Source: an uncultured Collinsella sp.
Lineage (GTDB): Bacteria; Actinomycetota; Coriobacteriia; Coriobacteriales; Coriobacteriaceae
DNA length: 20,796 nt
Direction of reading: 5' to 3'
NCBI GenBank assembly: GCA_902489515.1
Contig: CABUAL010000003.1
Coordinates: 1 to 20,796 of the forward strand
Shown: piece by piece, positions 5,615 to 10,582 of the stretch
Numbering within the stretch: the stretch's first letter is position 1
Layout: each line of letters starts with the position of its first letter
Program-made: the position numbers and the translations under genes
The notes under the pieces: model-generated
What the model was told of the DNA's origin: nothing
What the model saw: only the letters and a program-made list of their open reading frames with translations
The model's database searches: none

Positions 5615-6868
5615 TTGATCGCCGCAACCACGCCTAAAAGTAAGTCAACCGCCGCCGCGCTCTCCCCTGCGCGCACCAAGCTCTGCCTGGCGCTGCTCGT
5701 GCTGTTGGGATTCTCGCTCGGCTGCTCCGAGTTCGTGGTCATCGGCATCGAAAGCGACCTGGCGACGGAACTCGGCGTATCACTTGCCACTGCGGGCCAG
5801 CTCATCAGCGTGTTCGCGCTGGTCTACGCCATCGCGACGCCGGTGCTTGCGCTCAGCACGGGGCGATTCCGCCGCTACCAGCTGCTCGTGTGCTACAGCA
5901 TCGTCTTTGTGCTTGGCAATTTGTTTATGGCACTGGCGCCCAACTTCCAGGTGCTCTTTATCTCGCGCATTGTCCTGGGCTCTGTCTCGGGTGCGCTGCT
6001 CGCCGTGGGCGTGACGTACATCCCTGAGCTTCTGTCCCCGCAGCAAACTTCGCTTGCCATCTCGGTAGTATATGGTGCGTTTTCCGTGGCGATGGTCTTT
6101 GTGACCTCGATCGGTAAGTTTGTGGCCGACACGCTCGACTGGCACGTTGCCATGTACGGCGCGCTGACCTTTGCCGTTTTGATCTGCGGAGCGCTCGTGG
6201 CGTTTATGCCGCGCGCTGGGCAAACCGACGAGCCCGCCACCTTTCGCGAGCAGGCGAGTCTGCTGCGCGAGCCGAGTATCATCACCGGCATGCTTATCTT
6301 TTTGTTTGGCGTGGGCTCGGTCTATGTGTTCTACGGCTACGTGACGCCTTATCTTGAGCAGGTGCTGGGCATGGGCACGGTCGAAGCCAGTACCACGCTT
6401 ATGGCCTACGGCGTGTTCTGCCTGATCTCGAACATCCTGGGCGGATGGATCGATGCGCGCTTTGGCATGAAGGCGCTGCTTGTGACGTTTGTGCTGCAGG
6501 CGGCGGCATTGTTTGGGCTGTTTGCCGCAGGCGCTGCCATGCCGCTCGCACTTGTCTTTGTCTTTAGCCTGGCGATGCTCATGTACCTGTTCTCGGTGTC
6601 GTGCATCACGCACTTTATGGACGTGGCTCGCAGCCGCCATCCCAAATCGATGGTGCTCGCGAGCTCGGTAGAACCCATGGCGTTTAACGTCGGCATCTCG
6701 TTTGGCACCGCAGTGGGCGGCGCCGTGGTAAGCGGAGTTGGCATTGCATATGTAGGCGCGGTCGGTGCCGTGTTCTCGCTTGTGGCCTGGGCGCTCACGC
6801 TGGTGACGATTAAGTTGGCTCGCTGGGAGCGCCGTCGTCAATCAGCACAGCCCCGGATGCAGGCATAG
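5615..6868 (+). CDS. MFS efflux transporter (DHA1/AraJ-like)
   Basis: A 417-residue, 12-helix major facilitator of the drug:H+ antiporter-1/sugar-efflux type. Typical features are the first helix ending GFSLGCSEFVVIGI (32-45), the cytoplasmic loop STGRFRRYQLL (81-91) and the SRIVLGSVSGALLAVGVTYIPEL segment with a conserved helix-4 arginine. The chosen start is TTG at 5615 because GGAG (5603-5606) lies eight bases before it and no upstream ATG in frame has a site or family similarity. A small hairpin, CAATG-CGA-CATTG (about 5591-5603), abuts the ribosome site. Likely exports a drug, sugar or small metabolite; the substrate is not deducible. No regulator adjoins it. Confidence 0.9.
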   Translation: MIAATTPKSKSTAAALSPARTKLCLALLVLLGFSLGCSEFVVIGIESDLATELGVSLATAGQLISVFALVYAIATPVLALSTGRFRRYQLLVCYSIVFVLGNLFMALAPNFQVLFISRIVLGSVSGALLAVGVTYIPELLSPQQTSLAISVVYGAFSVAMVFVTSIGKFVADTLDWHVAMYGALTFAVLICGALVAFMPRAGQTDEPATFREQASLLREPSIITGMLIFLFGVGSVYVFYGYVTPYLEQVLGMGTVEASTTLMAYGVFCLISNILGGWIDARFGMKALLVTFVLQAAALFGLFAAGAAMPLALVFVFSLAMLMYLFSVSCITHFMDVARSRHPKSMVLASSVEPMAFNVGISFGTAVGGAVVSGVGIAYVGAVGAVFSLVAWALTLVTIKLARWERRRQSAQPRMQA

Positions 6869-6953
6869 GGGCGAACATAGCCCAAGGTGGCGAGCAACCG
6901 GTGAAAACCGTCCCATACGAGTAGTGTTTATCCGCCTGCAAGCTCCAGTAGTG

Positions 6954-7050
6954 CAATTTCGGGTACTTCAGATACACACTTTTCTACTATTTCGTGTATT
7001 CCAAGTACATGAAATCGTACTAAACTATGTATCTGAAGTACACGAAATTG
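6954..7050. repeat. 33-bp-period dyad array upstream of the intact ATPase
   Basis: Three 15-base units lie at 6962-6976 (GGTACTTCAGATACA), 6995-7009 (TGTATTCCAAGTACA) and 7028-7042 (TGTATCTGAAGTACA). Each is a dyad close to TGTA-N7-TACA, and successive starts are exactly 33 bp apart. ATTTCG/CGAAAT boxes flank them, so the outer 23-base arms (6954-6976 and 7028-7050) also pair with one mismatch. The last unit ends 22 bases before the ATPase start codon. This looks like an operator or protein-binding array. The region 6869-6953 holds nothing recognisable. Confidence 0.85.
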
Positions 7051-7063
7051 GAAAGGCGGCCCC

Positions 7064-8434
7064 ATGCGCAGATCAATCGAATCCGTTATCGAATCATGGG
7101 CGACAAAGGACGCGTCGCGCCCCCTCCTCATCCGTGGTGCGCGACGCGTAGGCAAAACGTACGTTGCCGAGGAAATCGGCAGACGGATCGCCGGCGATGC
7201 GTTTGTCAAACTCGACTTTCAGACCGATCTTGAGCTGATCGCTCCGCTGTTCGACTGTCCCACCGACGACGTTGACGCCATCGTGGCGCGAATCTCAGAC
7301 TATAAACGCACCCCCATTCGCAAAGAAACCGCCTTCATCCTGTTTGACGAGGTGCAGCTCTGCGAACGGGCGCTCAACTCGCTTCGCTTTTTTTCGGGTT
7401 CGGGCTGGCGCATATGCGCGACCGGCAGTCAGCTCGGCGTCGCCACGCGCAAGCGCAAGTTGCCTTTTCCCAGCGGCGTTCGTCAAGAGACCATGCATCC
7501 TATGTCGTTCGAGGAGTTTCTCTGGGCGCTCGACGAGGAGCAGATGGTCAATGCCATTCGTACCCACGCCGGCACGCTCGAGACCTACGCCGTGCACCAA
7601 GCCGCGCTCAGCCTGTTTCATCGATACCAGATCGTGGGCGGCATGCCCGCCGCCGTCAACGCATATCGCAAGACGTTATCCATCGAGGATGCGCGCGTCG
7701 AGCAGCGCGAAATCGACGAGACCTACACCGCCGATATGACCGACCCCGAAAACGGGATCAGCGGCGTGGCAGCGCGCAAGGTCTGGCGCTCCATTCCATC
7801 CCAGCTGCTACGATCCTCAACCAAGAAATTCAAGTACTCCGAGGTCGAACGCGGAGGCCGACGCGCAAAGCTCATCGAGCCACTCGACTGGCTCGAGGGC
7901 GCCGGCATCATATCGGTCAACAACCTGACCGAAGGCATCGAACCTCCCCTCGTCCCCTTCGACGACGAAGACGGGAGCTTCTTTAAAGTCTATCTTCTCG
8001 ATACGGGCCTCATGTTCTACAAACTCGGTATCAACCCGCGACTCTGGCTCGACCTCAAAGAGGATTCCGCCATTGCGCTGTCTTCCGACTTTCGAGGTGC
8101 CTTGGCGGAGAACTCGGTCATGCAGGCATTTTCGGGCAATGGTTTGCAGACGTATTACTGGATGCCACCGTCGTCTTGGAAGACGAACGGCGAGCTCGAT
8201 TTTCTACTTCAGACCGACCGTATGGAGATCGTTCCCGTCGAGGTAAAATCCGCACGCAACGTGCGCGCGAGAACCCTCGGGTCGTTTATGGAAAAAGCCC
8301 GGTCGCCGTATGCCTACATATTGTCCGAGAACAATTTTGCCCGCAGCGAAACCGAGGACGGGTGCGAGCTACGCCACCTCCCCTTGTACGCAGCGGGCTT
8401 TATCGGAGCAAACTGCCTCAAGGCCAGTCTGTAA
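7064..8434 (+). CDS. AAA ATPase with DUF4143 domain
   Basis: A 456-residue protein of the widespread ATPase/DUF4143 family, whose cellular function is poorly known. The N-terminal ATPase has Walker A GARRVGKT (25-32), Walker B ILFDEVQ (92-98) and a sensor-like ATGSQLG (119-125). VGGMPAAV (191-198) marks the usual linker, and the C-terminal DUF4143 part carries a PD-(D/E)xK-like set: E349 (GALAEN), D379 (GELDF), E393-x-K395 (VEVKSA). This suggests a nuclease-fold domain, but catalysis is unproven for the family. The start is ATG at 7064 after GGAAAGGCGG. A phosphatase gene follows after 33 bases. A frameshifted paralogue lies at 9091-10399. The repeat array upstream may be its own regulatory or target site. 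Confidence 0.93.
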   Translation: MRRSIESVIESWATKDASRPLLIRGARRVGKTYVAEEIGRRIAGDAFVKLDFQTDLELIAPLFDCPTDDVDAIVARISDYKRTPIRKETAFILFDEVQLCERALNSLRFFSGSGWRICATGSQLGVATRKRKLPFPSGVRQETMHPMSFEEFLWALDEEQMVNAIRTHAGTLETYAVHQAALSLFHRYQIVGGMPAAVNAYRKTLSIEDARVEQREIDETYTADMTDPENGISGVAARKVWRSIPSQLLRSSTKKFKYSEVERGGRRAKLIEPLDWLEGAGIISVNNLTEGIEPPLVPFDDEDGSFFKVYLLDTGLMFYKLGINPRLWLDLKEDSAIALSSDFRGALAENSVMQAFSGNGLQTYYWMPPSSWKTNGELDFLLQTDRMEIVPVEVKSARNVRARTLGSFMEKARSPYAYILSENNFARSETEDGCELRHLPLYAAGFIGANCLKASL

Positions 8435-8467
8435 ACCCCGCGCAACCGCCCGGAAAGGAAACCGCTC

Positions 8468-8914
8468 ATGCAACGCATTCTTTTTATCTGCCACGGGAAT
8501 ATCTGTCGCTCGACGATGGCTGAGTCCGTGTTTACCGAGCTGGTGCGCCGCGCTGGACGCGAGGCGGAGTTTGTCATCGATTCCGCAGCGACCTCAACTG
8601 AGGAGATCGGCAACCCGCCGCATCATGGCACGGTCGCCAAGCTACGCGAAGTCGGGATTCCCGTCGTTGCGCACCGTGCCCGTCAGGTGCGTCGCGCGGA
8701 GTATGGCGACTGGGACCACATTGTCTATATGGACGACGAGAACGCCCGCGGCCTGTACCGAATTTTTGGGAAGGACCCCGATGGCAAGATCTCGCGCCTG
8801 CTCGATTGGACCGATCGCCCCGGCGACGTGGCCGACCCCTGGTACACCGGCAATTTCAACGCCACCTACCGCGATGTACTCGCCGGTTGCACCGCTATGC
8901 TCGAGCAGCTGTAG
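8468..8914 (+). CDS. Low-molecular-weight protein tyrosine phosphatase
   Basis: A 148-residue cytoplasmic phosphatase. The P-loop C8-HGNIC-R14-S (CX5RS) is at the N-terminus, and the general-acid aspartate is D123 in ADPWY, followed by the expected aromatic residue. Family members dephosphorylate tyrosine on proteins, often tyrosine kinases of polysaccharide export, or arginine-phosphate. Length is typical. The start is ATG at 8468 with GGAAAGGAAA upstream. It is 33 bases after the ATPase gene and may be co-transcribed, although a functional link is not evident. No cognate kinase is in the window. Confidence 0.94.
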   Translation: MQRILFICHGNICRSTMAESVFTELVRRAGREAEFVIDSAATSTEEIGNPPHHGTVAKLREVGIPVVAHRARQVRRAEYGDWDHIVYMDDENARGLYRIFGKDPDGKISRLLDWTDRPGDVADPWYTGNFNATYRDVLAGCTAMLEQL

Positions 8915-8958
8915 GCGCTCGGGCGGCGCGGGCACACGGGCCACGCCATCGGCATAAA

Positions 8959-9045
8959 ACGAGCGTGGATTTTGAGCGTTCGAGTGCGCTCTAAACGGGA
9001 GAAAATCCACGCTCGTTATCTCGGTGGGAGAAAATCAACGCTCAT
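8959..9045. repeat. Nested hairpin with an extra direct copy, family D
   Basis: A perfect 15-bp stem (ACGAGCGTGGATTTT at 8959-8973, complement at 9002-9016) encloses a 5-bp stem (GAGCG 8974-8978, CGCTC 8987-8991). The right arm with its leader (8997-9016) is repeated directly at 9026-9045 with 18 of 20 matches. It lies between two convergent genes and abuts a family C palindrome. There is no T-run after the stem on plus, so a terminator role is uncertain. Confidence 0.8.
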
Positions 9046-9046
9046 G

Positions 9047-9079
9047 AATGTGACAAAGGGACTGCCCCTTTGTCACATC
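9047..9079. repeat. 33-bp palindrome, family C copy 2
   Basis: Same palindrome as at 5525-5557, including the same central mismatch, and differing only at the last base. It lies 11 bases past the stop codon of the broken ATPase gene. Confidence 0.9.
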
Positions 9080-9090
9080 CGGGACTAGCC

Positions 9091-10399
9091 CTAGACCGGC
9101 TTGACCTCCAGCTTTATCCCCTCGGCGCAGGAGTCGCCCAAAACATCCGAAAGGGCCCAGGTCGCATATAGCGGCAAATAGAGAACCGCTCCGTTGCGCT
9201 CAACGTTGCCTCTCGAGAAAACAATCCCGAGCCTTACGCCATATTCAGCCGTATCAAGCACATGACCGAGCGCAGCGTGCGCGTGGTAATAGGAGCCCGA
9301 TTTAACCTCGATCGGAACAGCCGTCCCATCCGGTCCATCGACCACAAAGTCCACTTCACCGCGCTTTTTTGTCTGATAGTAGTAAAGCTGGCGATTTTGG
9401 GCAGCCAGCTGCTGGGCCACCACGTTTTCGTAAATGCCGCCCAGGTTGGGCTCCTTGCTATCAAGATACGTCGCTTGGGCGACTCCAACGGGGTAGCGCG
9501 CCATCAACATGCCCGTATCCGATTGATATAGCTTGAACTGCGATGGCCGTGCCGTCTTGAGCAGGGGCGATTTTGGCTCGGTTACGATATCGGCTTTGAG
9601 AGCAACGCCGGCATCGACAAGCCATACAAAATCTCGCTGATACTTCTCGTAGTGAGCCTTGGGGTCAATGGAATTGAGCACGAAGCGCTTGTTTTCGCCC
9701 TCGAGCATAATAGGGAGCTGATCGTAGATGCTCTGCACCTGCAGGGCTCGCCCGCTGACGAACAGAGGCAAGGTCGCCCTGCGTGTCAAGGAAACGCTGC
9801 ACGACCTCCGGCATTCCGCCGACAACGGTATAGGTCCTGAAGTTTGCCATCATCGCGTCATGAATGTAATCAGGAATGGGCCTCTCGCTGATACACGCGT
9901 CACGTATCGTTTGACGAGCCCCCTCGCTCACCCCGATTGCCCAGCAAAACTCCTCAAAATCGAGCGGGAACATCCTAAGCTCGTGGACATACCCCACGGG
10001 ATAGGACCTGACGCCCTTGAACTGGGTCCCGAGCATTGACCCCGAAAACGCCCAACGGCACCTCCCGTCCTCAACAAGGAACTTTGCCATCGTCATGATG
10101 TCGGGGGCCTCTTGGACCTCATCGATAAACACGAGCGTTTTGCCTGGTGCAATCGACTTTCCCGAAAGAAGCGTCACCCTGCTGATGAAATCATCGGCAT
10201 TCCGCGCCTCGAGAAGAGCATCTTTTGCCTGGCGATTTTCCATGAGGTTAAGCTCGATGTAGGTTGCATGGTTGGCTTTGCCAAATGCGCGAATCGAATA
10301 GCTTTTGCCAATCTGGCGAGAACCCGTAATGAACAAGGCCTTTTGCTCGGAAGACTTCAACCAACGCTCCAGCTCTGCCGCTATTTTCCTGCGCAGCAT
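9091..10399 (-). pseudogene. AAA ATPase/DUF4143 protein, frameshifted
   Basis: A paralogue of the protein at 7064-8434 split across two frames. The N-terminal frame (from ATG 10399, GAGGAGAG upstream) has Walker A GSRQIGKS, Walker B LVFIDEVQ, SGSMLG and VVGGMPEVV. Family similarity then continues in the next frame from ALQVQSIYDQL through GGIYENVV, GEVDFVV and VPIEVKSG, the PD-(D/E)xK-like residues. The switch is near 9740-9765. The span is 1309 bases, one more than a multiple of three, so one extra base explains it; the repaired protein would be 435 residues, a normal length. It could be a true pseudogene, a sequencing error or, less likely, programmed frameshifting, since no slippery site is obvious. 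A 33-bp-period repeat array lies just upstream. Confidence 0.88.
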
Positions 10400-10423
10400 A
10401 GGCTCTCTCCTCAGTGTCATCAA

Positions 10424-10508
10424 ATGAAATGCAAAGTTTTATGCGCTTAATTATCGATGAAATGTAGGATTTTTAGAACCTAAAATCGGATGAAATGCAG
10501 AGATTTAG
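10424..10508. repeat. 33-bp-period direct repeats upstream of the broken ATPase
   Basis: ATGAAATG occurs at 10424, 10457 and 10490, exactly 33 bp apart, each inside a ~20-base related unit (ATGAAATG, then C/T, A, purines, then T-rich). Relative to the minus-strand gene the units read CATTTCAT. A separate dyad, TTTTAG-AAC-CTAAAA, lies between the second and third units. The nearest unit ends 25 bases before the ATPase ATG. The sequence is unlike the array at 6954-7050 but its spacing and placement are the same. Confidence 0.85.
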
Positions 10509-10518
10509 GATTATAAGC

Positions 10519-10540
10519 AAAAAGAAGGGGCAGCCCCGGC
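10519..10540 (-). terminator. Possible terminator of the kinase/TIGR04076 operon
   Basis: On the minus strand, GGGG-CTG-CCCC (10537-10527) is followed by TTCTTTTT. The stem is short, but the family C palindrome immediately before it (10542-10574) adds a strong hairpin. Direction fits the end of the minus-strand pair at 10583-11729. Confidence 0.45.
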
Positions 10541-10541
10541 G

Positions 10542-10574
10542 AATGTGACAAAGGGACTGTCCCTTTGTCACATT
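10542..10574. repeat. 33-bp palindrome, family C copy 3 (perfect)
   Basis: A perfect palindrome of 16-base arms around one central T. It lies nine bases past the TIGR04076 gene stop and 142 bases upstream of the broken ATPase start, so copies 2 and 3 bracket that gene and its repeat array. Confidence 0.92.
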
Positions 10575-10582
10575 GCGCTCGA

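Follow-up and report, generated by a model that had tools for sequence, protein, structure and literature searches.

We investigated a 20,796-nucleotide stretch of DNA from an uncultured Collinsella sp. (GenBank assembly GCA_902489515.1, contig CABUAL010000003.1), hereafter called the window. Two paralogous genes in it, A and B, specify ATPases with AAA_14 and DUF4143 domains, and each is preceded by an array of three direct repeats with a period of 33 bp. The array is probably a dedicated multi-copy operator recognised by the ATPase of the adjoining gene, and the ATPase would most likely act as an autorepressor. We give this reading, which is built on sequence comparisons, a probability of about two in three. 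The computation supports a regularly spaced, clade-specific array whose unit diverges together with the protein, a predictor of unit bases in the recognition helix, dedicated sites, and a cassette in which array and gene are joined. Direct binding, repression instead of activation, and a trigger in defence are the parts that we infer.

In the 120 bp 5' of gene A, the best self-match was found at a lag of 33 (identity 0.52), and the segment from -112 to -11 relative to the gene start scored above 60 of 60 dinucleotide shuffles (z = 19.9). The best lag for array B was also 33 (identity 0.46), and its segment from -117 to -24 relative to the start of gene B exceeded 60 of 60 shuffles (z = 8.6). 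The unit sequences of the two arrays differ, with three units in each. The lag and shuffle tests therefore confirm the initial annotation, made from the sequence alone, in its description of two paralogues with three units each, a shared 33-bp period and differing unit sequences. It had also given both arrays the same distance to the start codon; the distances are only similar, with the last repeated base at -11 for A and -24 for B. Array A additionally resembles a single long palindrome centred on its middle unit, with 45-nt arms that are 84% complementary. A run of Tandem Repeats Finder detected neither array A nor array B. Gene B is broken and was analysed as found, with its two frames left unjoined; intact 453-aa relatives of it are present in other genomes (loci L049-L053, L057 and L059).

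The upstream array is a general feature of the family and extends beyond the window pair. From a first set of 121 matching open reading frames (ORFs), duplicates and ORFs without a Walker motif or a start codon by our own rule were removed, leaving 102. The 101 genes tested comprised the two window genes and the rest from 21 genomes, each with up to 200 bp of upstream sequence. A segment was called significant if it scored above 60 of 60 dinucleotide shuffles with z >2.5. By this rule, direct repeats were found upstream of 70 of the 101 family genes versus 13 of 149 control genes; 40 of 189 controls adjoin a family gene and were excluded. At a segment score of at least 15, the counts were 64/101 and 6/149 (9/189 when the adjoining controls were included). 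Among the six control arrays, one looks parS-like by eye. At L105, copies of GTTTCACGTGAAAC with a 39-bp period lie upstream of 15179 and look parS-like by eye. The lags among the 70 positive genes were 33 (29 genes), 23 (19), 34 (6), 32 (5), 40 (4) and others (7). A plasmid sample gave 10 of 22 genes above 100 of 100 shuffles, one of which (L211) is a simple repeat; its 28-bp match resembles a simple 7-bp repeat.

One subfamily with 23-bp spacing was sampled further. Eighty loci were taken from the 368 relatives found, and 8 were dropped; arrays were present in all 72 usable genes of this first batch (period 23, 45 or 46 bp) and in 67 of 68 on re-testing. In a second batch of 50, of which 7 were unusable, arrays were found in 41 of 43 genes, or in 23 of 25 after the removal of 18 duplicates. 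Within arrays, the unit cores are more conserved (up to 1.88 bits) than the linkers (about 1.1-1.2 bits; 5 of the 72 genes were dropped for this comparison). We find it hardly credible that the repeats are functionless products of slippage. Near-identical units, linkers included, do occur in some arrays (L062, L168 and L190), as slippage would leave them; however, cores are kept and linkers vary on average, the same period recurs across phyla, and few control genes have such arrays.

The spacing follows the protein clade. We labelled 190 distinct proteins, omitting the first-set genes of <=370 aa (gene B included) and then 4 duplicates of 194. The labels were direct repeats of ~23 bp (92), ~33 bp (46) or ~40 bp (7), inverted repeats only (24), other (3) and none (18). 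With direct repeats disregarded, a significant inverted repeat was found for 60 of the 190. On a FastTree tree of 189 rows (one of the 190 was dropped), the window's clade of 50 rows contains 42 with 33-bp repeats, 3 with inverted repeats, 5 without repeats and none with 23-bp repeats. The 23-bp clade of 102 rows contains 88 with 23-bp repeats, 5 with inverted repeats, 8 without repeats and one with 33-bp repeats. A third clade of 34 rows contains 16 with inverted repeats, 7 with 40-bp repeats, 3 with 33-bp repeats, 3 with other repeats and 5 without, and thus 29 of 34 have some repeat label. The 23-bp and 33-bp labels require 3 changes over 137 rows on the tree. All labels together require 31 changes versus a shuffled mean of 87.7, and none of 200 shuffles was as low. 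Both spacings occur in several phyla: a 32-33 bp period is also found in plasmid-borne homologues of the 33-bp clade from Vibrio, Acinetobacter, Ruminococcus, Criblamydia, Segatella and Prevotella, and a 22-23 bp period in Spartinivicinus, Rhizobium and Sulfitobacter. The initial annotation had expected the repeat type to follow the protein subclade at a constant 33 bp. Unit type does track the subclade, and the spacing is fixed within clades, but 33 bp is not universal: 33 bp and 23 bp are the two main spacings, and the third clade has mostly palindromes or ~40-bp repeats.

The unit sequence co-diverges with the protein. Registers were assigned with orientation taken into account; 6 of 96 genes yielded no register, and 3 low-margin rows among the remaining 90 were dropped, leaving 87. 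The array runs along the gene in 75 of the 90 and against it in 15, and 12 reversed arrays are among the 87 rows used for statistics. Reversed arrays with a recognisably kept motif and a period of 23 bp or double were observed at L276, L277, L284, L286, L289 and L290, and also at L190. Because the motif is kept on reversal, the site is likely to be double-stranded DNA, which argues against an RNA element. Distances between proteins correlate with those between units (Mantel r 0.444, n = 87), the largest value in 2000 permutations being 0.154. Such a correlation could come from co-inheritance alone; therefore, individual residues were examined.

Among 375 windows of 9 residues, the best for unit positions 2-3 lie within residues 180-195. 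Those for positions 7-11 lie within 213-228 and cover the predicted helix-turn-helix recognition helix, and those for positions 16-18 lie within 308-323, which contains the nuclease ExD motif and the loop before it. The best linker window averaged 0.16. Asn221 is accompanied by GA at unit positions 7-8 in 9 of 10 cases, and Ala, Pro or Glu at 221 by T at position 7 in 26 of 26. Residues 221 and 224 were already among the top columns for the 5' half of the unit in the first 66 genes. Partial Mantel windows of 15 residues (1 of 67 dropped) indicated no single specificity region, and the per-position analysis did better. At L012 and L036, the proteins are 83% identical and the 3' half-units differ by eye; a single pair proves little.

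Rules derived from 64 genes were applied to 23 genes fetched later, 11 of them reversed, with a median identity of 0.55 to the nearest training gene. For unit position 7, residue 221 gave the right base in 14 of 23 genes, compared with 8 for the majority and 10 for the nearest neighbour; none of 388 columns did better, and two tied. For position 8, it was right in 13 of 23, compared with 5 for the majority and 7 for the nearest neighbour, and no column did better or tied. In phylogenetically independent pairs, Ala, Pro, Glu or Gln at 221 versus T at position 7 gave agreement in 5.8 of 7 pairs and opposition in none. The cognate tests lean one way, with none opposed on average, and a median p as low as 0.03 was obtained for this one alone. 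Of four off-target controls, three gave no agreement and the fourth was mixed. The co-divergence of site and protein proposed in the initial annotation is thus borne out by the Mantel correlation and by residue 221. These results support the winged-helix recognition helix as the likely reader of part of the unit, and a contact of the nuclease domain with another part is no more than a suggestion. Positions 220-224, which covary in the 23-bp subfamily, align with residues 267-271 of gene A, which would be their counterpart in the other clade. It is quite improbable that the array is bound by some other host factor and that the ATPase is merely encoded downstream: the unit type tracks ATPase relatedness, two unit positions can be predicted in the genes fetched later from a residue in the ATPase's own recognition helix, and the ATPase gene stands alone in cassette A.

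The sites are dedicated to their genes. Two unit patterns were searched in the 21 genomes with <=3 mismatches, and the matches were judged by coordinates. They gave 13 matches (at 7 places) and 12 matches, all within the matching genes' own arrays; the array A pattern matched only the arrays of gene A orthologues. A reversed-pattern control had no match in the same genomes. At the sequence level, the sites lie at the promoter region of the proposed regulator itself and are specific to it, as in an operator pair. At the gene A site, the array and the gene are also gained and lost together. Among 43 genomes of the genus, the flank of gene A was present in 27, and 21 of 29 flank loci were examined, the remaining 8 being weak matches. 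Eleven are filled, 9 are empty, and one (L225) was left unassigned. The empty sites run from window position 6832 through 54-60 bp of other sequence to position 8453, with both array and gene gone; they contain no match to the array or its unit and, by eye, no target duplication. For cassette B, L224, L226, L228, L231 and L232 jump from window 9014-9043 to 10576. Five of the 9 sites empty for A also lack gene B and its array, and four continue into gene B. Cassettes A and B are gained and lost independently, and the ATPase gene is the only gene in cassette A. Two palindromic copies, AATGTGACAAAGGGACTG.CCCTTTGTCACATT, flank cassette B at window ~9046-9083 and 10541-10574. Window 8958-9043 contains inverted copies of GAGCGTGGAT...ATCCACGCTC, which are present in the empty sites of relatives too.

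The initial annotation had named an operator, a centromere and a selfish element as options. The operator is favoured over the other two because the two unit patterns searched occur only in their own arrays in the 21 genomes and the empty sites lack both gene and array. The combination of an ATPase with direct repeats, together with the plasmid location of some homologues, would suit a centromere or an iteron, with the ATPase segregating or replicating the carrier DNA. However, the cassettes at the window site are removable single-gene units between ordinary genes, one genome (G008) has two ATPase genes with similar arrays, and the array position is tied to the gene start. ParABS-like centromere sites would be independent of the ATPase promoter, whereas both units searched are found only in the matching ATPase arrays; this explanation is most improbable. 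A selfish or homing element, in which the array would be the target cut by the nuclease for cassette insertion, is very improbable. The PD-(D/E)xK-like domain, the cassette-like presence and absence, and the several copies per genome (a PF13635 search gave matches in all 21 genomes, nearest ones and relatives, with up to 12 per genome) agree with such an element. A homing endonuclease would have its target in empty sites, but the nine found here hold neither the unit nor, by eye, a target duplication. Moreover, the two patterns are not matched outside arrays in the 21 genomes, and the third clade mostly keeps its repeats without the catalytic lysine. Phages seldom carry the family (7 of 50,697 records in a single query).

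Table 1. Features of the window discussed in the text (window positions).
Feature	Position	Strand	Description
Gene A, intact	7064-8434	+	456-aa AAA_14 + DUF4143 protein, PADLOC PDC-S01; from Pfam, PADLOC and AlphaFold2 (AF2; mean pLDDT 88.4)
Array A	6952-7053	+	3 units, period 33 bp: ~6952-6984, ~6985-7017, ~7018-7050; dyad core like TTTCGTGTAYTTNNRNTACAYGAAA
Gene A, predicted DNA-reading part	7757-7900	+	Residues 232-279, winged-helix region; AF2 helix 267-279
Gene A, C-terminal PD-(D/E)xK-like domain	8060-8431	+	E349, E377, D379, E393, K395
Cassette A	6833-8452	+	Array A + gene A; absent from relatives without gene A
Gene B (broken)	9091-10399	-	Start codon 10399-10397 by our own start rule
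Gene B, first part (AAA_14)	9665-10399	-	One frame (ORF 9665-10423)
Gene B, second part (DUF4143)	9091-9825	-	Other frame, overlapping ORF; gene split here
Array B	10418-10516	-	3 units, period 33 bp: ~10516-10484, ~10483-10451, ~10450-10418; core TGCATTTCATC
Cassette B	9044-10575	-	Absent in 5 relatives; left edge 9014-9043 by genome

In the gene A product, AAA_14 and DUF4143 score above the curated Pfam cut-offs in one protein (60.1 and 67 bits); in gene B, Pfam finds both domains in separate frames. The architecture is that of a STAND-type NTPase, with a P-loop ATPase carrying Walker A and B motifs followed by a winged helix in an NB-ARC-like arrangement. STAND-type NTPases have a C-terminal repeat sensor region. 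Here, no repeat region was seen at the C-terminus, which models as a PD-(D/E)xK-like domain. In line with the initial annotation, this domain has the core fold of the PD-(D/E)xK superfamily with the helix Glu, ExD and E/QxK residues and is a predicted nuclease. All 34 rows of the third clade lack the nuclease lysine and mostly have Q-x-S or Q-x-T instead of E-x-K; examples are L070, L079, L091 and L102, in which upstream palindromes or 40-bp repeats are kept. Because this clade keeps a repeat label in 29 of 34 rows, site-specific cutting is not required. Residues 1-447 of gene A align with positions 3-432 of 439 in the PDC-S01 model PDLC04786 (E 2.6e-114). PDC-S01 models are matched by all five proteins scanned (gene A and four relatives), and no NCBIfam model matches these five. 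We take COG1373 to be the label of PDC-S01 (AAA_14 + DUF4143). According to the available text of its source, PDC-S01 is a phage-defence candidate (PDC) that ranks fourth among the commonest defences in prokaryotes as a whole, and experimental validation is still pending for most PDCs (PMC12988326).

If the array is an operator, one ATPase protomer would be bound per unit. In the 23-bp clade, where the units are asymmetric direct repeats, the predicted recognition helix of the winged-helix region would read part of each unit, and the PD-(D/E)xK-like domain perhaps another part. Some units of the 33-bp clade are dyads, and promoter palindromes are common in the third clade. The fixed spacing would hold several protomers side by side at the promoter, most likely repressing it. 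Depletion of the protein, a change in its nucleotide state or its diversion elsewhere, for example by phage DNA or protein, would free the gene, so that the ATPase/nuclease is produced. Repression is favoured because the position and orientation of the array vary and palindromes lie at the likely promoter in several genes (e.g. L007, L070 and L193).

The ATPase might instead bind the array to activate transcription, in the manner of the STAND regulator MalT, inducing its own gene upon a signal; we regard this as unlikely. For the regulator IniR, which binds DNA and has an SSO1545-like ATPase, the available text describes induction of its target promoter (PMC5760070). The ATPase module of the window family is STAND-like, Foldseek ranks a MalT complex first, albeit at a TM score of only 0.27-0.30, and the array lies upstream of the likely -10 hexamer in some 33-bp genes (L026 and its kin). 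However, genes differ in whether the likely -10 precedes the array, follows it or falls within it, as judged by a hexamer scan that is unreliable in AT-rich arrays. Moreover, arrays may be reversed, whereas activators usually require a fixed geometry.

Several observations weigh against an autorepressor reading its own operator. Where the -10 lies with respect to the direct-repeat arrays could not be established by the hexamer scan, and since the -10 is not reliably placed, repression is not firmly set apart from activation. Where palindrome genes have a strong hexamer, the -10 falls in the palindrome span in 12 of 21, but the spans reach ~100 bp and the chance level was not computed. Significant direct repeats are missing in 31 of the 101 first-set genes and in 12 of the 22 plasmid-sample genes, and 18 of the 190 labelled genes have neither direct nor inverted repeats. 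The clades and periods were compared on a FastTree tree with many long branches; three 33-bp and three 23-bp rows fall within or next to the third clade, and one 33-bp row falls in the 23-bp clade. The predictor test was not fully blind, because residue 221 and the unit positions were chosen on the 87 rows, which include the 23 test rows, and the registers came from all rows. In the same test, residue 220 predicts unit position 10 in 13 of 23, but seven columns are better; residue 224 is right in 9 of 23, which equals the nearest neighbour (9); residue 315 is right in 14 and 11 of 23 versus 17 and 11 for the nearest neighbour; and the prediction from residue 187 equals the majority only. The residue groups for the independent-pair tests were picked after the table had been viewed, most of these tests have fewer than 6 informative pairs, and residue 315 agrees in 0.9 of 4. 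The split of the half-sites between winged helix and nuclease is only suggestive: values as high came from 52 and 41 of 1000 random bipartitions, or from 30 of 1000 with 87 rows.

A more speculative and rather doubtful extension of the operator reading would make PDC-S01 a sensor, repressor and effector in a single protein. The STAND-like ATPase/nuclease would sit in wait as an ordered oligomer on the array at its own promoter, with the clade spacing set by the oligomer geometry. Infection would pull the oligomer off, which would derepress the gene and free an assembled nuclease, and the array would serve as both scaffold and operator. Unit and recognition residues would co-evolve, so that many copies could coexist in one genome without crosstalk.

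Upstream arrays are not described in the parts available of the literature found on DUF4143, COG1373 and PDC-S01, subscription papers and preprints lying outside the search. In the accessible text, PDC-S01 is treated as a single-gene candidate with no mention of a cognate DNA site, and DUF4143 is mentioned for a Thermus gene in a list. A known analogue of the proposed operator is that of RptR, which, in the available text, represses the promoter of a type I restriction-modification (R-M) defence island via three direct repeats that lie close to the -10 or cover it (PMC12255303). RptR differs as a small separate regulator of 9-bp repeats with a TAGCTA core, whereas the likely binder here is the ATPase/nuclease, and the unit changes with the protein. 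The controller (C) proteins of type II R-M systems likewise control a defence nuclease gene at its promoter, according to the same partial source (PMC12255303). They differ in that they are small, distinct proteins whose genes lie upstream of that of the effector. MalT and IniR are STAND-like ATPases that bind promoter DNA, as the window family would. DNA binding by MalT is performed by a separate C-terminal domain, and MalT regulates other genes. IniR, as far as its available text describes it, also has a separate C-terminal DNA-binding domain and regulates other genes (PMC5760070). The match to the archaeal ATPases SSO1545 (2fna) and PAB2304 (2qen) is limited to the ATPase and winged-helix part, and no report of a cognate DNA site for either was found in the literature searched.

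This bacterial ATPase gene family is very common, unstudied and predicted to be antiviral. A cognate DNA site would provide a biochemical handle on PDC-S01, through which binding, regulation and specificity become testable. The proposed relation between residue and base is open to simple swap tests, and the array may serve as a sequence signature for the annotation of family members and their clades.

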